In this document: positions 63 through 22,099 of the stretch, in pieces
Layout: each line of letters begins with the position of its first letter
Numbering within the stretch: the first letter of the stretch is position 1
Assembly (NCBI GenBank): GCA_902529365.1
Contig: CABZWK010000002.1
Location: 1-64,000, forward strand
Origin: an uncultured Balneola sp.
Lineage (GTDB): Bacteria; Bacteroidota; Rhodothermia; Balneolales; Balneolaceae
DNA length: 64,000 bases
Direction: 5' to 3'
Notes under the pieces: model-generated
What the model was told of the DNA's origin: nothing
Databases searched by the model: none
Seen by the model: only the letters and a program-made list of their open reading frames with translations
Made by a program: the position numbers and the translations under genes

Positions 63-3000
63 ATGCTCAAATACATTGAATCTGCGAATCCATACGAGCT
101 CATAGATTATCTCATCGAGGCCTATCCTGTTAGCGACCGTCCCTTTTTTGCACCATGGATCGTGGTTCCAAACAGAGAATTCCAAGAGTGGATAGATCGT
201 GAGATTGCTAAGAAAGTGGGAAGTAGTCCTAATTTCAATTTTGTTTTCCCTATTGAGTTTATTTGGAAATTATATCGATTAATAGAACCAGATTTACCCA
301 AAAAATTACCCACTGATCTGCATGCTCTTAGTTTCAAAATTTTTGAACTACTCGCAAATAATGAACAGGTGAAATCATTGTTTGGCGAATTTCAAGATCA
401 TTCGCACCGTTTTGCATTAGCCGTTCAACTTGCAGATGTATTTGATCAATACATTAATGTCCGACCTCATATGCTTTTTGAATGGGAAGACTCTGTTTCT
501 GATTCCGACTTTGGTATCGACACAGTATCCGATGCAACAATACATTCTGTTACCCAAACAAATGTCCATCCGATAGCATCACCGAATGCTCAAAACCCAG
601 ATATTTCAGATGGGAAAAAACCCAAAAAACTCATAGGTTCGCCAAAAAGATTAGAAGGGTACATTCAGCTTCAAAAAGAACTCTGGCAATCCTTGAATAG
701 TGTAATTGATCGAGATGGTAACCTTAAATGGTCAAGAATACAGATTTATAAGAATTGGTTGCAACAGCTAAAAAACCCTGATATAGAGGAAAAACTGCCT
801 GCTGATATTTTCTTTGTTGGGGAAAGAGATTGGAATCGTTTGTTAGTGGAGAGTGTAGAGCTAATAAGTCGATACACGAATGTACACGTGGTGAATTATC
901 CTGAATTAGAAAACGATATTTCCCCTAAAACTGAAAAGGACTTCAATAGAATAGCATCCGAGCCAAAACAAATAGGATTTAGTTTTGGGGCAGAACAGAA
1001 TTTCATCTCACATTTGGCTGAAAAATGGAAGGAAAACGGTATGTTTTCTGCTTATTTGCATGCATTAAGAAGGAACAGTAAGGCCTCCCAAACAGCTAAT
1101 ATTGTGCCTAAAGACCATTGGTTCAAATTATCTAAAATACTATCTAACCCTGGTTCTATACACGCTTGTCATTCCATAAAAAGAGAGGTAGAAGTATTAA
1201 AAGATGATATATTGCATTTTCTAAATACCTCTGAAGCAATCGATTTAAGTGAAATCGGCATTTTGGTTCCCGATGTTGAAGCTTATTCGCCTATTATTAA
1301 ACAGGTATTTGCACAAGAACCCAACCTACCTGTGTACCTGCATGATGGGCAAGAACGTCCACTTCAAGATAGTTTTTTAAGCTTGCTATATTTGGCGTAT
1401 AACGACTTTAAAATGAGTGATTTGATGGATGCACTCACCGATCCTAACATCATGGAAAGATATGGATTCGATGTATTCGAATTGGATATGATTAGGGATT
1501 GGCTAGTCAGTGACAACATACATTTTGGACTGGATAATTCTCATAAGTACAGCTTATCAACGGCCTTAACGTCATGGTGGAGAGGTTATTTTGTAGAACA
1601 CCGGAGTTTTACACATCAACCCGAAATCGCTCCCTCTAAAAGAGTCAGAAATTCCGATCAATTGTCTACTCTTTCCAAGCTTCAAATGCTTTATGATGAA
1701 ATATTAGAGTTAGTTTTTTCACCAGAAACCGAACGGCTTAACACGGAGTGGTTGGCGATCTTACGTGAGCATTTTGTTCGGATATTTAAAGAAAGCGCCG
1801 GTTCAAATCCTCGCGGATACAATTGGGTAATTCACTGGTTTGAACAACTTGCAGAGGAACTAACTTATGCGTCGTCCTCTGTTAGCTATGATGTATTTAT
1901 GGGTTGGTTCCGTAATGTATTTGTTCAAAAGCAGGATCATTCATCATCTTTTGGAACCGGTGTGTTAGTCAGTAGTTATATCCCAAACCGATTATTGCCA
2001 TTTTCGTATACAGCCATGCTGGGCTTAAATGAACGCGAATTTCCTGGTAATCCACAGCGTCCTGTTTTTGACCTCATCCATCAGCAGCCTTTAGAGGGTG
2101 AACGGCAGCGGAAAAAGGATACATCTCGCTTATTTATTGAGCGGTTGGCTCTCACTAAATCTCAGTATTTCTTAAGCTATATCGGCAGGGATATACACAC
2201 TAATTCCGAGAAAAATCCCTCCCCACTGATTACCCAGTTACGTTATCTTCACAAAGGGGCTGAGTCCACTCAAAAAAGGCAAACCATTTCCCCGGAAAGC
2301 AGTAACAAAGCTGCGTTGACTTATCAAGAACATCGCTTACATGCCTTTGCTAAACCATATTTTAGCCATAAAGAGGGAAAAAACTCATTTAATAAAGAGC
2401 ATTATCAGCAATGTTGTTCACTATATGGTTATTTAGAACCCTCTAAACATACTTTTTTTGTGGATACTACCTTGGTATTAAATGGCTCGAGCACTGCTAT
2501 AACCAACACTCCGGGTTCTGAAAGTGGGGGGCGATCGAAGATTGATCTGGATGATTTGATTCGGTTTTACACGCATCCAACTAGGTTTTACCTTGAAACG
2601 ACATTGCATGTACAAGATTCTTACGCTCCTTTGGTCGTTCAGGATTATGAGAGTTATACCGTAGAGGGTTTGGACAAGTATGAGGTTAAGCTTAGTATTT
2701 GGGAGGCTCTGGAACAAGGGGTAGGGTGCAAAGAATGTTATGAGTATCTACGGAGCATTAAAGTAATACCCCCACATTCAACCTATTACCCGGTCTTTGA
2801 AGAATTATTTGATCAACTTCAGCAATTTTATTCACAAGTTAAAGAAAGCATTCAAGGCTTAGAATTGAGGTCTTTAACCTTAAGCACTTATACCCATAGT
2901 TTGGAAGGCCAACTTCCGATTTTAAGCAGTGGTGAGTTCAAGGAATACCGATTGGGTAGGCTACAGGCAAAGCATAAAGTGGGATTCTTTGTGAAACATC

Positions 3001-3425
3001 TTTTGAAGGCTGCCACTGGTTCCAAAGAAGGATCCGATTATTTTTATATCGATAAAAAAAACTTGGCCTTACATTTAGCACCAATAAGTCCGGAGGTAGC
3101 TCAGCAGCATTTAGAACAGTTGATACAATGGTATGTAAACGCTATGCAGTCTAATGAGTCCTTGATATTTTTCCCTGAAAGTTCACTGAGCTACGTTGAG
3201 GCACTACATAAAAAAGAGGATGAGCTCTATGCACTTGGAAAAGCAATGTCGGTTTGGAAACAAAAAAATAAGTCCTATAGGTATCCTGGGGAGGGAGAAG
3301 ATCTCTGGAACACTATAAGTTGGGTTGATGAAAATCCCTTAGCCACCCAAGCCTTTCATGATAATAGTCATACCTTTTGGGCAAATTGGATGGATATTGC
3401 TACTAAAAAAGTCCTGGAGGGTTAA
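63..3425 (+). CDS. recC: Exodeoxyribonuclease V subunit gamma (RecC)
   Basis: RecC is the chi-recognising, DNA-splitting scaffold subunit of the RecBCD helicase-nuclease that processes double-strand ends for recombination. The 1120-residue length matches the family (about 1120). Around residues 367-376 is CHSIKREVEVL, the counterpart of the conserved CHSxxREVEVL helicase-like motif, followed by a VPDVEAYSPII segment. LGLNEREFPGNPQRPVFDLI near residue 653 matches the conserved RecC core. The ATG at 63 has no clear Shine-Dalgarno. The gene is followed three bases later by recB and is the first of a three-gene operon. Confidence is high because recB and recD follow in the expected order. Confidence 0.93.
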   Translation: MLKYIESANPYELIDYLIEAYPVSDRPFFAPWIVVPNREFQEWIDREIAKKVGSSPNFNFVFPIEFIWKLYRLIEPDLPKKLPTDLHALSFKIFELLANNEQVKSLFGEFQDHSHRFALAVQLADVFDQYINVRPHMLFEWEDSVSDSDFGIDTVSDATIHSVTQTNVHPIASPNAQNPDISDGKKPKKLIGSPKRLEGYIQLQKELWQSLNSVIDRDGNLKWSRIQIYKNWLQQLKNPDIEEKLPADIFFVGERDWNRLLVESVELISRYTNVHVVNYPELENDISPKTEKDFNRIASEPKQIGFSFGAEQNFISHLAEKWKENGMFSAYLHALRRNSKASQTANIVPKDHWFKLSKILSNPGSIHACHSIKREVEVLKDDILHFLNTSEAIDLSEIGILVPDVEAYSPIIKQVFAQEPNLPVYLHDGQERPLQDSFLSLLYLAYNDFKMSDLMDALTDPNIMERYGFDVFELDMIRDWLVSDNIHFGLDNSHKYSLSTALTSWWRGYFVEHRSFTHQPEIAPSKRVRNSDQLSTLSKLQMLYDEILELVFSPETERLNTEWLAILREHFVRIFKESAGSNPRGYNWVIHWFEQLAEELTYASSSVSYDVFMGWFRNVFVQKQDHSSSFGTGVLVSSYIPNRLLPFSYTAMLGLNEREFPGNPQRPVFDLIHQQPLEGERQRKKDTSRLFIERLALTKSQYFLSYIGRDIHTNSEKNPSPLITQLRYLHKGAESTQKRQTISPESSNKAALTYQEHRLHAFAKPYFSHKEGKNSFNKEHYQQCCSLYGYLEPSKHTFFVDTTLVLNGSSTAITNTPGSESGGRSKIDLDDLIRFYTHPTRFYLETTLHVQDSYAPLVVQDYESYTVEGLDKYEVKLSIWEALEQGVGCKECYEYLRSIKVIPPHSTYYPVFEELFDQLQQFYSQVKESIQGLELRSLTLSTYTHSLEGQLPILSSGEFKEYRLGRLQAKHKVGFFVKHLLKAATGSKEGSDYFYIDKKNLALHLAPISPEVAQQHLEQLIQWYVNAMQSNESLIFFPESSLSYVEALHKKEDELYALGKAMSVWKQKNKSYRYPGEGEDLWNTISWVDENPLATQAFHDNSHTFWANWMDIATKKVLEG

Positions 3426-3428
3426 TAC

Positions 3429-6400
3429 ATGGAGCATTTTGATGTCACTCAGGCACCATTAGAGGGCGTTCACTTAGTTGAGGCGAATGCAGGCACCGGC
3501 AAAACATTCAATATCAGTTCCTTGGTGGTTCGTTTGATTGCAGAGGGGGCACTGGATCTGAAAAATATTTTAGTGCTCACCTTTACCGAAGCGGCCACCA
3601 CAGAGTTAAGGGCTCGTATTCAGCATCGCTGTAGAGAAATATTGGAGCTTATTGAAGCAGAAAATGAAGCTGAAGCAATTAATAAAACAGAGAAGGACAA
3701 CTTTTTAGATTATTGTAAAACCCGCTATGAACAGGATTTTAAGGCTCAGAAACGTTTGCAAGAGGCAGTGACCACCTTTGATGAAGCCAACATTTCAACC
3801 ATTCACGGTTTTTGCCAAGGTTTATTAAGATCGTATCCCTTTCAGTTTAATGTGCGTCCCGATTTTGAATTAGTACCAAATTCATCCCTGTTCATCTTGG
3901 AAGTTATTAGGGAATTTTGGAGAGTGTTTTATGCCCCAACTGACCACCGAATGATTCAATGCATGCAGCGCATATTTTCGGAGTTGGGAAAGGGGATGAA
4001 CAGTCCTGAAAAAGTGTATGATGGATTGAAAGATGCGTTTAAAAGTGAGTATGAATTGCAACCCTCACATCCCCTTTGGATTTCGTACCAAGAAGATTCT
4101 AATGGTAATAAATGTTTGCAAAGTTTGGCTGATTTTTTGGAAGCAGCAGAACGTACCAAAAAAGCTAAGGCTGATTATGTTGAAGCCGATTGGCAGAAGG
4201 AATTACAGCACATTTTGACCCACTATTGGGTTGTTCAAATTCGAGATAATATACGCGCTGAAAAAGAAAGCAAGGGCTTGTTAGATTATGACGATCTTAT
4301 CCGTATTGTATCAAAAGGCATCCAAGAAGCGAATGAGGACTTCATTCAATTGGTCCGGTCAGAATATAGAGTAGCGCTGATTGATGAATTTCAAGATACC
4401 GACGAAGATCAATTTGCTATTTTTAAACGGCTGTACACTAATTCAGGAACGTTATATCTAATTGGTGATCCCAAGCAAGCTATTTATAGTTTTAGAGGGG
4501 CGGATATCCACACCTATATGGGAGCTCGTGATTGGGTACCGGCAGCAAATCGATATAAGTTATCCTATAATTACAGGTCCAATCCTGAACTACTTGGCTT
4601 TACGAATGATTTGTTTTCAAGTGCCCAGGATAACAACCCTTTTATTATAAAAATAGATTACCAAGATAGTTTGCATCCTTCTCAAATAAGTAAACTTGGA
4701 GACCGCTTTAATCAGAATCAGGCTAGTTCGGACTCTTATTATTCAAATCATATCTGGATTCAAAAGAACCAAGATTTCCACCGAATTCATCCCATCCAAA
4801 TGGTAGAGATTGAAGGAGATGGGGTCGAAGAAACTAATGAGGCCATAAAGCAAGATGTGGTTCAAAGGATTAAAGAATTACTTGATAGCCCATTGATTCG
4901 TACCTCGACTTCCTCTGAGCAATGGGAGGTCAAGCCATTCAAAGCGTCCGATATAGCTATTTTGGTGCATAAAAATAGGGATGCTCAGGATATTCAGAAG
5001 CAACTTAAATTACAGGGTATTGAGGCCATTATAAATAGTCAGCAATCCATTTATACAACAGAAGAAGCACAATACATCCTCCACTGGTTACAGGTTATTC
5101 AAGACCCTAGTAAGGAGCGGCTAATCAATACGATTTTAGCACACCGTTTATCGGTTCTGAATACAATGGAATTGCAAAAATTACAAACTAACGATGCGCA
5201 ATGGGCAAGGATTCTGGAACAAATCCAACTGGCTCATTCATCACTCAGTAAGCAAAAAATACATAGCCTTCTTCAAACGCTCTTTCAGAGCTTGGGTATT
5301 TGGTCGGCTTGGACCAAATTAGATGATTTTGAGCGGGTTATTACAAACATAGAGCACTTATTTGAGATTCTAAACACATTGCAACAGTCCGGCTGGATGG
5401 GGGTTTCTTCATTGATCAATTATCTATATGCTCAATCTACTGAAGAAAAGGACGAGATGGCTCTTGATGAGGATGTTATCCGGTTAAATACCGATGAGGA
5501 TATGGTTCATATAATTACCGCTCATCGTAGTAAAGGCCTCCAGTATCCGGTTGTCTTTTGCCCATATTCCTCGTCTGGACGAAGTTTTGAGCTAACCAAT
5601 AAAATTACTAAGTACCGCAAGGAAAATAAGCAGATGATAGATCTTAGGATGGTATCCAGGTCGAAAGAGATTCACTTAGAGTCCGCTATACCTATGGTTA
5701 CGGAGGAAATAGCCAGTAATATTCGGCTTTGTTATGTTTCTATAACTAGGGCCGAATCCGTTTGTTTTTTATACACTCAAACCAGTACTCGTGGTTGGAA
5801 TTCAGGCTTATTAGCCTCTCAAATGGATAAGACAGAGCTCATTGAATCTATTGATGAAAAACTTTTAAAGCCTAGAACAAAAAATTTACCTGCCGATGGA
5901 CTTGCTAAACAACAGGTAAGTCGATTGATGAAGCGGTTTGCTGCAAACAATGCCCTTTATACTGAGCCAATGGACCAATCGGCACATTGGTATAATAGGC
6001 TAATCCAGGAATCTCAAGATTTAGTACAAACCACTGGCGTTCAATTAACTCAAGAGCTTAGTTATACCTCCTTTGAACGAAAAGAGATGGTTAATAACTA
6101 TGAAAAAGTACATTCCTACAGTTCAATTAAGCGGTTAAAGGAGCGTATTAGTGAGGGCGTAAATGCCTTTACTTCCAACTCCTTCGATGCGGCCAAAGAC
6201 TATCAGGATTTCGATGGTTTAGCAGATGATTTAGCTGAAAACGCAGCGGTTGATCAGGATATAATGCAAACCACAAAAATGCCAGGGGGGACGGAATTAG
6301 GCAGCTTTTTTCATCGAATTATGGAGGATTTGCTAGAAAAGTGGTGCTTGAATGAGTTCGATTATAAAGAATGGGTAATGTCAGAAGCCAAAAATTTCGG

Positions 6401-17530: not shown

Positions 17531-17980
17531 ATGAAAAAACTTATAGACGCGTATATTTATCGCGAGAGTTCAAAAAACATAGAATTTTTGATACTTCAGA
17601 GAGCTAAGAATAAAATATATGCCGGACAGTGGCGTATGGTGGGTGGTAAGGTAAAAGAAAATGAAGGCTACGCTGATGCGGCTTTGCGTGAAATTCAGGA
17701 GGAAATTCAGTTAACCCCTGCTTTCTTTTGGGTAGTGCCCTCTGTAAATACATTTTTTGAGGCCAAAACCAATCAAATTCTACACATTCCAGCTTTTGCT
17801 GCAAAAGCACAAGAATCCTTTAGCCCAACGCTAGATGATGAGCATACAAAGTATAAATGGATTAGTGTATCCCAAATCTCTACTCACATTTTTTGGCCAG
17901 AACAACAAAGGCTTATGAAGATGATTGCAACTCTTGTCCAGAATGGCCATGTAGTGTCAGAGTGGGTTTTAAAGCCATGA
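17531..17980 (+). CDS. Nudix hydrolase (MutT-type)
   Basis: A 149-residue pyrophosphohydrolase. The complete Nudix box GKVKENEGYADAALREIQEE lies at about residues 38-57, with G, E, REI and EE in register (G-x5-E-x7-REUxEE). The N-terminus AYIYRESSKNIEFLILQRA forms the first beta strands (DAYIYRESS, then EFLILQRA). Members clean up nucleotide or nucleoside diphosphate derivatives; the substrate here is undetermined. It lies between greA and ackA, and its stop is four bases from the ackA ATG, so co-transcription with ackA is likely. Confidence 0.88.
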   Translation: MKKLIDAYIYRESSKNIEFLILQRAKNKIYAGQWRMVGGKVKENEGYADAALREIQEEIQLTPAFFWVVPSVNTFFEAKTNQILHIPAFAAKAQESFSPTLDDEHTKYKWISVSQISTHIFWPEQQRLMKMIATLVQNGHVVSEWVLKP

Positions 17981-17984
17981 AAGC

Positions 17985-19202
17985 ATGAAAATATTAGTAA
18001 TAAATTGTGGAAGTTCTTCCATCAAATACCAACTCATCAACACTAAAGAGAAAACGACTCTTTGTAAAGGTTTGGTTGAGAGGATTGGGGCCGTTACGTC
18101 TATTATTCGTCACGAATTTGCCAAAGAAAAACCCGTAAAAAAATCAATCGCTTTAGAAAATCACTCAGCAGCCCTTTCCAAAATTATGGAATTACTAATG
18201 GAGGCTGACAATGAACATTTACATGATGTTAGTGAAATAGAAGCGGTAGGCCACCGGGTTGTTCATGGGGGTGAACTTTTTAAAGATTCCGTACTTATCG
18301 ATGAGGATGTAGAATCGGCGATTGAACAAGCATTTGATATTGCACCACTACACAATCCTCCAAACTTGCAAGGGATTAGAGCTGCAAAAAAGCTGTTGCC
18401 AAACGTTCCGCATGTTGCTGTTTTTGACACAGCATTTCATCACTCTATACCACAGCATGCATATTTATATGCCATTCCAAATCGGCTTTACAGGCGATAT
18501 AAAATACGTCGTTACGGATTTCATGGAACCTCTCATTATTATGTTTCAAGAGAGTACTTTAATGTATTGGGAAAGAAAAAAATGGGGTCCAAGTTAATCA
18601 CTTGTCATTTAGGAAATGGCGGGTCAATCACTGCTATAAAAGATGGAAATTCTTATGACACTTCTATGGGCTTTACTCCACTAGAAGGATTAGTAATGGG
18701 AACCAGAAGTGGGGATATAGATCCTTCCATTTTGTTTTTTTTAATTGAAAAAGAAGAATTATCCCTAGCAAACGTACACGCATTACTAAATAAGCATAGT
18801 GGATTACTTGGATTAAGTGGTTATGCTGGCGATATGCGAGATTTATTGGAAGAAGCTGAACAAGGTGATCGCAGGTGTACCGAAGCAGTAGATGTATTCT
18901 GTTACAGAGCTAAAAAGTATATTGGATCATATATGGCAGCTCTAAATGGAGGGGATGCCTTGATATTTACTGGTGGTATTGGTGAAAACTCAGCGATTAT
19001 AAGGCGAAAAATCGTAGAAAATCTAAGCTACCTGGGCTTGGAATTAGATGACAAAAAAAATGAGAAAGCAAAAGGCTTTTCAGCTATTCATGCGATTGAA
19101 TCCAAAGTAGAAATCTATGTGATTCCAACTAATGAAGAATTGGTGATTGCAATTGATGCCGCAAAAATAGCGATTGCCTCTCAACAAACTCCATGGGCGT
19201 AA
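17985..19202 (+). CDS. ackA: Acetate kinase
   Basis: AckA interconverts acetyl phosphate + ADP and acetate + ATP. MKILVINCGSSSIKYQL opens the ASKHA fold; GHRVVHGGE, HNPPNLQGI, FDTAFHHSIP, RRYGFHGTSHYYV, CHLGNGGSI, DTSMGFTPLEGLVMGTRSGD and FTGGIGENSA are all intact, including the catalytic Asp and Arg. Length 405 is normal. It begins four bases after the Nudix gene and overlaps the next gene, a caspase-like lipoprotein, by ten bases. Pta follows that gene, so the acetate branch is split by one unrelated-looking ORF. Confidence 0.95.
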   Translation: MKILVINCGSSSIKYQLINTKEKTTLCKGLVERIGAVTSIIRHEFAKEKPVKKSIALENHSAALSKIMELLMEADNEHLHDVSEIEAVGHRVVHGGELFKDSVLIDEDVESAIEQAFDIAPLHNPPNLQGIRAAKKLLPNVPHVAVFDTAFHHSIPQHAYLYAIPNRLYRRYKIRRYGFHGTSHYYVSREYFNVLGKKKMGSKLITCHLGNGGSITAIKDGNSYDTSMGFTPLEGLVMGTRSGDIDPSILFFLIEKEELSLANVHALLNKHSGLLGLSGYAGDMRDLLEEAEQGDRRCTEAVDVFCYRAKKYIGSYMAALNGGDALIFTGGIGENSAIIRRKIVENLSYLGLELDDKKNEKAKGFSAIHAIESKVEIYVIPTNEELVIAIDAAKIAIASQQTPWA

Positions 19203-20941
19203 TAAAGACATCATATACACTTGTATGCTTGGCTATCGGTCTATCCTTTAGCGCATGTACCAGTTCTAAGTGGACAATAGAGTCGACCCAAGCAATTGAT
19301 CGTACGGAATTTGATTTAGTAGAAGAAGATGTTTTCCTGGAAATGAGTCAAGTACCTAGTCCCAACAGGCCAGTATTAGTGTTTGATGTTTGGAATGTAG
19401 AGACCTATGATTACTCCATAAAGATTCAGAGTAATAGATATTTGCAACGCTACAGACCTTCTTTAGGCGCCGTATTTTTTGGTATTTTAGGGGCTACTGC
19501 TGCGTACTTGACAGCGGATATATTGTCACCTAATAGCACTGAACAATATATACTATATGGATTGGGCGCCTTAAGTTTAGTTACAGGTTTAGCGGGAGAT
19601 AGAAGTTGGGGTAAAGCTACATCAACTGGTGAACAAAGGCTATTGAAGCAAACCGGTGTAATTCAATTAAGTGATACACTTAGAGCAACTAAGCAGCCTA
19701 CTATGTCGCCAAGCTACACTATCTATAATGATCTTGAGGCAATAGCCATTCGAAATAATGTTACCTTCGATAAGAATAGCTATTTCATTAACTTATTAGA
19801 AGACATTAATCCCAGTAGTTTTTTGGTTCAAGAAAATCAAAGTATACGAATTGAACTTGAATTTAATGATAGCCTTTATTCTCAAACTATCCCTGTGGAA
19901 GACATTTTTGAGCGTTTTGTTGTAGTTGAAACAGAAGTTACGGCCTTGCGTCAAAATACAGACAATACCAACAATTCCATATTGACTGATTTAGCTAAGG
20001 GCAGTGAGTTGCTATTGCTGGGTGAATTGGAAAACTGGTATATTGTGCGTTATGGAATTGCTGAAACCTACATCTCAAAAAATGACTCCAAATTAATTTG
20101 GCGTCCAACTGATTATATTGACGAGTTGTCCATTATTACCCTTCCAAATGTACCCTTTGGAAATATAGATGTAGAACGCGAGATACCTGTACGATTGACC
20201 GAAAATAACCAAGCGGCGGCCTTTATCTTAAGCAACGAATATTATGGAGATAGTTTCCCTAACAAACGGTATGCAGAAAGGGATGCAAAGCTCTTAGAAG
20301 AGTATTTTATCAACAGTTTTGGATTGGGTTTTGATGGTATTCGAACCTCCATAAATACCTCAAGGATAGAGCAGTTTAGATATAATTGGGATGAATTTTT
20401 AAAACGTAATCGAGCCAATAAAAAACAACTTATATTATATTTAAATGGTTATGTTACAATAGATAAGATAGGTAATATAAATTATTTGTTAGGTGATGAG
20501 GCTTCAGGTATACATCAGAAAAACAGCCTAGTACTTGCCCATTTATTCCAAGATGCAATTGATGCGGGCTTTACCGAGCTTTTTATGATAGGAGATTTAA
20601 TCTTTGATAATGGAAATGAGACAAATACTGTCTCTAGGGCTAAGTATTACGATGCTTTCTATGCATTAAATTCTACTATGTTAGCTACTAGAGGAATTAA
20701 CTTTGGCCTGCTTTTTTCATCGGATGGTGGAAGCGATTCACAATTGTACACTAAGCATGCTATTGCTCAAAAGTATCACAGCATATTTAGTTATTATATA
20801 GCCGATGCGATAAAAAAAGGGAATTACACGTCTAATCAATTGCTTAATTATGTTCAAAGAAATGTGGACTATACCGCTCGTAGACTACACGATACACCCC
20901 AAAATGTTATATATTTTGGTAATGCAAATATTGAGTTCTAA
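19193..20941 (+). CDS. Lipoprotein with SH3-like and degenerate caspase-like domain
   Basis: Family not firmly recognised; the domains can be read. Residues 1-22 form a signal with lipobox-like FSAC (Cys 22). Two hydrophobic segments follow (91-112 and 118-134). Residues about 247-298 (VTALRQNT...WYIVRYGIAETYI) look like a bacterial SH3 domain. Residues about 340-580 follow the caspase/metacaspase order: AAFILSNEYY, RYAERDAKLLEEYF, ILYLNGYV (414-421), YLLGDEA, FMIGDLIFDNG (464-474), LLFSSDGGSDSQLY. Where active members have SGHG and DxC, this has NGYV and DLI, so Tyr 420 and Ile 470 seem to replace His and Cys. It is probably a non-catalytic envelope protein. It overlaps ackA by ten bases and precedes pta. 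Confidence 0.6.
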   Translation: MGVIKTSYTLVCLAIGLSFSACTSSKWTIESTQAIDRTEFDLVEEDVFLEMSQVPSPNRPVLVFDVWNVETYDYSIKIQSNRYLQRYRPSLGAVFFGILGATAAYLTADILSPNSTEQYILYGLGALSLVTGLAGDRSWGKATSTGEQRLLKQTGVIQLSDTLRATKQPTMSPSYTIYNDLEAIAIRNNVTFDKNSYFINLLEDINPSSFLVQENQSIRIELEFNDSLYSQTIPVEDIFERFVVVETEVTALRQNTDNTNNSILTDLAKGSELLLLGELENWYIVRYGIAETYISKNDSKLIWRPTDYIDELSIITLPNVPFGNIDVEREIPVRLTENNQAAAFILSNEYYGDSFPNKRYAERDAKLLEEYFINSFGLGFDGIRTSINTSRIEQFRYNWDEFLKRNRANKKQLILYLNGYVTIDKIGNINYLLGDEASGIHQKNSLVLAHLFQDAIDAGFTELFMIGDLIFDNGNETNTVSRAKYYDAFYALNSTMLATRGINFGLLFSSDGGSDSQLYTKHAIAQKYHSIFSYYIADAIKKGNYTSNQLLNYVQRNVDYTARRLHDTPQNVIYFGNANIEF

Positions 20942-21061: not shown

Positions 21062-22099
21062 ATGAATTTCACCGATTTGCTACGTGATAAGGCAAAAGGC
21101 AGTCAATCAAAGATAGTATTAGCCCGATCTTCAGATGCAAGAGTTCAACAAGCGGCTAATTTACTTGTGGAACTAAAAATAGGTGAAGTTTATTTGGTTC
21201 GGAATCGTAGTAAGAGGGGACGATATTCTTTTAATAGCTCCGAAGTAGGTAATGATCGAAAGGCGGTTGCATCAACACGAGGGAATGATGGGTCGATTGA
21301 GCTAAACTCAAAAATTCATTGGATCGATCCATGGGAAGATTCACGTCGAGAAGAATTCGCAGACTTTCTTTATGAGAAAAGAAAAAATAAGGGATGGAAT
21401 CGTGAACGCTGCGAAAAAACCATTTTAGATCCACTTTATTTCACAGGTTGTCTGTTAGCAATGGGGTATATGGATGTAGGTGTGGCAGGTTCGGTTTCAA
21501 CAACGGGAGATGTGCTGCGGGCGGCCATTCATACCATTGGTCTTAGATCTGGTTCAACCACCATTTCAAGTAGTTTTATCATGGAATTAACTACTGGTGA
21601 GGTAGTGAGTTTTGGAGATTGTGCGGTTATACCTATGCCAAATGCGGAACAATTAGCCACAATAGCACATGATTCAGCTATGATATATTACTCTATAACT
21701 GGTGTAGAACCTAAGATTGCTTTGTTGTCATTTTCTACTAATGGCAGTGCCGATCATGAACGTGTAGATGTCCCTAGAGATGCTCTAAAGGTGTATATAG
21801 AACAGGGCGGTGACTTTGAAATTGATGGTGAATTGCAGTTTGATGCAGCCTGGGATGCCGCTGTTGCGAGTCGCAAAGCCCCGGATAGTATGGTAGCAGG
21901 GCAGGCGAACGTCTTTGTGTTTCCAAGTTTAGAGGCCGGTAATATAGGCTACAAAATGGTGGAGAGGTTAGCTGGCGCAAGTGCAACTGGGCCAATTATT
22001 CAAGGGCTAAATAAACCCATGTTGGATCTCTCTAGAGGTTGTGATGCCAATGATATAGTTAACACCGCATGTGTGGGTGTATTAATGACAAAAAACTGA
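21062..22099 (+). CDS. pta: Phosphate acetyltransferase
   Basis: Pta interconverts acetyl-CoA + phosphate and acetyl phosphate + CoA, feeding AckA. The 345-residue protein is the single-domain PTA/PTB form: ARSSDARVQQAANLL near the start, GCLLAMGYMDVGVAGS, STTGDVLRAAIHTIGL, ALLSFSTNGSA, GELQFDAAWDAAVA, and NVFVFPSLEAGNIGYKMVERLAGASATGP in two blocks (VFPSLEAGNIGYK, ERLAGASATGPIIQGLNKP). A stretch of residues 55-90 (rich in charged and Ser/Asn) looks like a lineage insertion. Upstream lies a 120-base gap with a palindrome, so it may have its own promoter. ManA begins four bases after its stop. Confidence 0.9.
   Translation: MNFTDLLRDKAKGSQSKIVLARSSDARVQQAANLLVELKIGEVYLVRNRSKRGRYSFNSSEVGNDRKAVASTRGNDGSIELNSKIHWIDPWEDSRREEFADFLYEKRKNKGWNRERCEKTILDPLYFTGCLLAMGYMDVGVAGSVSTTGDVLRAAIHTIGLRSGSTTISSSFIMELTTGEVVSFGDCAVIPMPNAEQLATIAHDSAMIYYSITGVEPKIALLSFSTNGSADHERVDVPRDALKVYIEQGGDFEIDGELQFDAAWDAAVASRKAPDSMVAGQANVFVFPSLEAGNIGYKMVERLAGASATGPIIQGLNKPMLDLSRGCDANDIVNTACVGVLMTKN

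Follow-up and report, generated by a model that had tools for sequence, protein, structure and literature searches.

A putative pseudo-orthocaspase lipoprotein encoded between ackA and pta in Balneolaceae

A 64,000-nucleotide stretch of DNA from an uncultured Balneola sp. (the window) carries, between ackA and pta, a gene here called X, whose product is read with fair but not strong confidence as a non-proteolytic, membrane-anchored pseudo-orthocaspase lipoprotein in which the dead caspase domain serves as a peptide- or protein-recognition module, its place beside ackA and pta being that of an old operon. The original prediction was of a non-catalytic caspase-fold envelope lipoprotein linked to the acetyl-phosphate node. 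The first part stands: the fold is that of a caspase, the catalytic dyad is missing family-wide and the gene lies at related ackA-pta loci. The second is not supported, as X is intact and under selection in two genomes in which ackA and pta have disappeared or survive only as relics.

The X locus

The genes concerned are arranged in the window as follows:

17531..17980, + strand: NUDIX hydrolase gene, conserved upstream neighbour (PF00293, E 7e-19; synteny)
17985..19202, + strand: ackA, upstream neighbour, with a 10-nt overlap with X (TIGR00016, E 3.7e-154)
19193..20941, + strand: X, pseudo-orthocaspase lipoprotein gene, 582 aa (open reading frame; intact orthologues across Balneolales; dN/dS 0.07-0.19)
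21062..22099, + strand: pta, downstream neighbour of X (PF01515, E 5e-95)

The start codon of X lies inside the last codons of ackA, and both the ten-base overlap and the position ahead of pta are as originally described. The usual gene order in Balneolales is nudix, a barrel-like exported protein, ackA, X, an EamA transporter and pta; this order, with the barrel and EamA genes as variable members, is common to several families, and the overlap of the X start with ackA recurs in many loci. The survey of neighbourhoods that had been proposed as a check thus finds X at the corresponding ackA-pta loci throughout the order. In the window's genus neither the barrel gene nor the EamA gene has a match.

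Several features of the surroundings were also observed. The barrel-like protein (~430 aa, with a GGANLRGY motif) lies between nudix and ackA in most Balneolaceae and has no Pfam or NCBIfam family match; at locus L096 two related copies stand in tandem (2101-3411 and 3485-4786). The window pta encodes 345 aa, compared with 318 in genome G002, with additional residues towards the N terminus, and its NCBIfam pta score of 302.9 falls just under the cut-off of 311.2. Shuffled sequence gave more promoter-like matches than the X region did, and no RNA family or tRNA was found within the window.

A caspase fold with a lost catalytic dyad

The caspase domain of X and the positions within it that bear on catalysis are:

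20168..20938, + strand: pseudo-caspase (C14-like) domain, residues 326-582 (Foldseek match to MALT1, 3v4o_A; PF00656 in 12/28 orthologues)
20450..20452, + strand: Tyr420, at the catalytic His position (Tyr in 36 of 61 family members, Phe in 14, His in only 4; His in 15/15 active homologues)
20594..20596, + strand: Asp468, acidic residue two positions ahead of the catalytic Cys site, of S1-pocket type (Asp in 60/61; putative equivalent of TbMCA2 Asp211 by position; PMC4357240, PMC6426788)
20600..20602, + strand: Ile470, at the catalytic Cys position (Cys in 0/61, Asp in 36, Glu in 11; Cys in 15/15 active homologues)

The C-terminal domain is confirmed as a caspase fold, beyond chance. An AlphaFold2 model of X was built from 37 sequences (mean pLDDT 82.6), its full-length pTM of 0.47 leaving the relative placing of the domains undefined, and in Foldseek it matched the MALT1 paracaspase, Arabidopsis metacaspases and caspases with E values of 1e-9 to 1e-5 and a probability of 1.00, the best match reaching 1.5e-9. 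The match to MALT1 3v4o_A (E 4.4e-9, target TM 0.72) spans about 250 columns of the domain at residues ~326-582, p20 and p10 being taken together. Comparison of sequences alone is less direct for the window protein, for which the sole Pfam match is a sub-threshold one to PF00656 (caspase; E 0.017, residues 342-419) and for which neither NCBIfam, nor a PDB sequence search with the protein or with its profile, returned a match. Among its orthologues PF00656 is found at E<=0.01 in 12 of 28, with a best value of 2.4e-10, and a six-frame search matched it to the X orthologues of nine genomes, eight of them over the cut-off, the best at E 3.4e-11 and covering positions 2-219 of the 233 in the model; the NCBIfam family 'caspase, EACC1-associated type' is matched by 11 of 37. 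The claim that the C-terminal half is caspase-like therefore survives the structure prediction on which its refutation was to turn.

At the two catalytic sites the window protein reads YLNGYVTI and IGDLIF, where H/C-intact homologues read YYSGHGxP and LDACFSG; the equivalent motifs in 15 homologous proteins of other Bacteroidota take the forms (S)GHG and DAC(F)SG, and every one of these proteins has both the His and the Cys. Alignment with these proteins agrees with the earlier assignment of Tyr420 to the place of the His and Ile470 to that of the Cys, and the loss extends to the whole family. The Cys position, Ile in the window protein and Phe or Ser in close relatives, is acidic in 47 of 61 members, the rest holding other residues; the intact catalytic Cys of an active family C14 peptidase is thus found in none. 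The four members with His all belong to family f3. A catalytic Cys at some other position can be dismissed for the window protein, since its only cysteines are Cys22 of the lipobox and residue 12, which lies in the signal peptide; 57 of the 61 homologues, this one included, are free of Cys beyond the lipobox.

In a maximum-likelihood tree of the caspase domain the 61 pseudo forms and the 15 active forms fall on opposite sides of one branch (97/86), which, with midpoint rooting only, would fit a single loss of the Cys and a later or repeated loss of the His. The f3 forms at L021, L024, L026 and L027 keep the His motif (YYGHG/YYGHA) with Asp in place of the Cys, a pattern that looks as though the loss of the Cys had come before that of the His. 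The best explanation is that the caspase domain of X descends from active exported caspases and that the dyad has been lost for good.

Other residues of the domain have been retained, Asp468, Arg563 and Gln570 being nearly or fully invariant across the family. In trypanosome MCA2 the pocket residues concerned are Asp95 and Asp211 (PMC4357240), and Asp468, lying two residues ahead of the Cys position, would on that ground correspond to Asp211; a counterpart of Asp95 in Asp364 is a guess. An active relative, searched against the PDB to map both residues, matched no metacaspase. Asp364 is kept in 51 of 61 members; the 10 replacements fall mostly in two families, and a role as a basic-residue pocket may therefore not extend to every member. 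Given the loss of the dyad and the retention of the pocket Asp, the caspase domain is most likely a recognition module.

N-terminal architecture and anchoring

Ahead of the caspase domain, the protein is made up of the following segments:

19193..19255, + strand: type II signal peptide with an FSAC lipobox, residues 1-21 (sequence; Cys22 in 61/61)
19256..19459, + strand: Cys22 (predicted lipidated) and N-terminal long beta-strands, residues 22-89 (AlphaFold2 strands 22-53 and 61-89; invariant columns)
19463..19594, + strand: hydrophobic alpha-hairpin, residues 91-134, a possible membrane hairpin (AlphaFold2 helices 91-110 and 116-134)
19598..19684, + strand: third long strand, residues 136-164, the most conserved stretch (TGExRLL; AlphaFold2, family alignment)
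19712..19927, + strand: beta-rich segment, residues 174-245 (AlphaFold2 secondary structure)
19937..20104, + strand: bacterial SH3-like domain, residues ~249-304 (PF08239 SH3_3 in 5/28 orthologues; five strands in the model)

The lipobox-like signal, the membrane segment and the SH3-like domain read from the window alone have all been borne out. Cys22 follows a hydrophobic leader and is Cys in 61 of 61 homologues, from which lipidation is predicted. The membrane segment is modelled as two adjacent helices, with Kyte-Doolittle means of 1.70 and 0.89 in the window protein and of 0.8-1.8 and 0.2-1.3 across the family; the motif RYLQRYRPS, in which R82 and Q85 are invariant, precedes it. The SH3 region, modelled as five short strands, matches PF08239 with a best E of 6e-7 and has low entropy within the family.

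Modelled alone (window 19256-19936), the N-terminal domain reached a pLDDT of 88.4 and forms three strands of ~30 residues around the helical hairpin. Residues 22-248 gave no significant match to solved PDB folds (best E 0.08); a weak likeness to long-stranded pore-forming proteins does not amount to evidence. The domain profile matched 38 of 296 genomes of the phylum, all within Balneolales, and the domain was seen in the X family only.

X is probably held at the membrane by its lipid and, it would appear, by the hydrophobic hairpin; that the N-terminal domain itself contributes to anchoring is a guess. Lipoproteins of Bacteroidota that reach the surface carry an export signal (LES) of K-(D/E)2 type right after the Cys (PMC5080379). 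No such signal was found after Cys22 across the X family, which has small polar residues there and then a Trp at +5. This suggests a protein facing the periplasm, which is the most likely orientation from the sequence, with the proviso that the rule comes from Bacteroidota and may not hold in Balneolales.

The caspase half is no better conserved than the SH3 region and the N-terminal strands. This raises the possibility of a purely structural envelope component, in which the caspase domain would be a stable scaffold and the beta/hairpin and SH3 parts would do the work. However, the near or full invariance of Asp468, Arg563 and Gln570 points to a specific constraint on the caspase half, and such a role is considered unlikely.

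Persistence of X without ackA and pta

The linkage of X to ackA and pta is old but dispensable. In genome G006 (98% complete) no ackA or pta match was found, and in G008 both genes are short relics only, that of ackA with stops; at the two loci (L091, L092) some 330 nt are left between nudix and X, with traces of both ackA ends. The relics look collinear, and the loss of ackA and pta therefore probably came before the two genomes split. X is full-length in both, with a dN/dS between them of 0.19 (95% 0.14-0.27), much as for the neighbouring nudix (0.25) and mannose-6-phosphate-isomerase (0.22) genes; over all comparisons its dN/dS is 0.07-0.19, with upper bootstrap limits of at most 0.27, which is purifying selection. 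Both genomes belong to the window's genus and appear to have recently lost the whole acetate overflow pathway.

The same separation is seen in other lineages. X is present in G032 and G035 (~88% complete), in which neither ackA nor pta was matched, and in G021 (97% complete), in which pta was matched and ackA was not; in the Fodinibius/Rhodohalobacter branch ackA lies elsewhere and X is still found between nudix and EamA-pta. Conversely, five f4 genomes of Balneolales have ackA and pta and no X. X is thus not restricted to genomes with ackA and pta, and these absences on either side indicate that it is not an obligate partner of the pathway.

It could nevertheless be asked whether X, as a sensor or scaffold in the envelope, ties acetyl-phosphate or acetate flux to the cell surface, given that the gene order is kept across families of Balneolales and that the X start overlaps ackA in many loci. 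This is quite improbable for two reasons: first, X persists under selection where its neighbours have decayed, left the locus or gone, and is missing from genomes that keep them. Second, AckA and Pta are cytoplasmic enzymes and X is exported. The acetyl-phosphate link was accordingly set aside, and the best explanation for the position between ackA and pta is an old shared operon; the conserved synteny could reflect co-regulation.

Distribution of X and of other caspases

Full-length matches to X are confined to Balneolales (Balneola, Gracilimonas, Fodinibius/Aliifodinibius, Rhodohalobacter and uncultured relatives). Within Balneolaceae X is a near-universal, single-copy core gene: of 68 genomes, nearly all with a completeness of 90% or more, 66 have one full-length copy each, and the two without it are small, at 1.5 and 1.8 Mb. 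Among 38 relatives only three PF00656 matches other than X were found, all in G010, which is itself without an X match, so that X is usually without a recognised active caspase to regulate. In G010 (contig C230, 11076-14156) the barrel gene, the EamA gene and pta are adjacent, and X and ackA are missing; the three caspase matches lie elsewhere in that genome.

These counts bear on whether X acts on an active caspase of its own cell as a decoy or regulator, in the manner of human FLIP(L) or trypanosome MC4. Such regulation is a known mode of pseudo-caspases (PMC6426788; FLIP(L) reviewed in PMC7586951), and exported active relatives occur in Bacteroidota, one of them, an H/C-intact lipoprotein (L073), in a Balneolaceae genome. 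However, none of the X-bearing genomes among the 38 relatives has a second PF00656 match, and the family profile picked up another caspase domain in only 3 of the 68 Balneolaceae genomes, the case of L073 among them, which makes this role highly improbable. Least probable of the alternatives is another hydrolytic chemistry, for example aspartyl- or metal-assisted, through Asp468 and the Asp or Glu that mostly replaces the Cys beside it: we know of no such chemistry on a caspase fold, and the Ile of the window protein and the Phe or Ser of its close relatives argue that an acidic residue is not required.

Discussion

With these alternatives weighed, the preferred reading remains that of a non-proteolytic recognition protein. 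X would be exported and carry a lipid on Cys22; this lipid and the probable hairpin would keep it at the membrane, from where it would project its SH3-type and caspase-fold domains, most likely into the periplasm. The SH3 domain would contact the cell wall or a partner protein, and the dead caspase domain, with its putative pocket Asp retained, would bind a peptide or protein ligand as a possible scaffold, tether or sensor. A bolder and rather doubtful version is that an exported caspase has become a housekeeping envelope receptor or scaffold in Balneolales, its dead domain carried on a lipid-anchored SH3 stalk and recognising, at the cell wall, a specific client or peptide signal; one copy of its gene would belong to the core genome of the entire family.

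Pseudo-orthocaspases have so far been described almost exclusively in cyanobacteria and alphaproteobacteria, and have been tied to photosynthesis. To our knowledge, the Balneolaceae are not known for photosynthesis. X shows that a dead caspase fold can become a core component of the envelope in cells without a recognised active caspase. Its role is open to direct test in the cultured genera Gracilimonas, Fodinibius and Rhodohalobacter, which carry intact orthologues, and the lineages that have lost ackA and pta are a natural experiment that separates X from its neighbours.

No description of a pseudo-orthocaspase from Balneolales, or of one that is a lipoprotein, was found in the open-licence literature. 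Among bacterial caspase homologues 8.6% are pseudo-orthocaspases; Alphaproteobacteria and Cyanobacteria account for 90% of these, and of 1078 Bacteroidetes sequences only 10 are of this kind (PMC6426788). Substitutions by Ser and Tyr had been noted earlier (PMC3501461), and loss of the Synechocystis protein, SyOC, leads to higher tolerance of oxidative stress (PMC7889975). X resembles these proteins (Klemencic et al. 2019, PMC6426788; SyOC, PMC7889975) in its p20/caspase fold, in the replacement of the His, mostly by Tyr, in the loss of the Cys, in the frequent lack of an active caspase alongside and in a putative acidic pocket Asp, the pocket being kept in pseudo-orthocaspases whatever replaces the dyad (PMC6426788). 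It differs in that the known forms are mostly Tyr-Ser, whereas X mostly pairs Tyr or Phe with Asp or Glu, and in being an exported lipoprotein with an SH3 domain and a private N-terminal domain, near-universal in one Bacteroidota family.

The H/C-intact exported orthocaspases of Bacteroidota (L073, L074, L075) have a C-terminal domain homologous to that of X, several sharing its (S)RRL...Q.P tail and several exported or lipidated, as X is predicted to be, but they keep the GHG and DAC motifs and their N-terminal regions bear no evident relation to that of X. The closest solved fold is that of the MALT1 paracaspase (PDB 3v4o, 3uo8), which shares ~13% identity with X and, unlike it, is a cytoplasmic human protein with an active Cys and His. 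Human FLIP(L) is, like X, a catalytically dead caspase under selection; it pairs with caspase-8, whereas most genomes with X have no recognised active partner for it.
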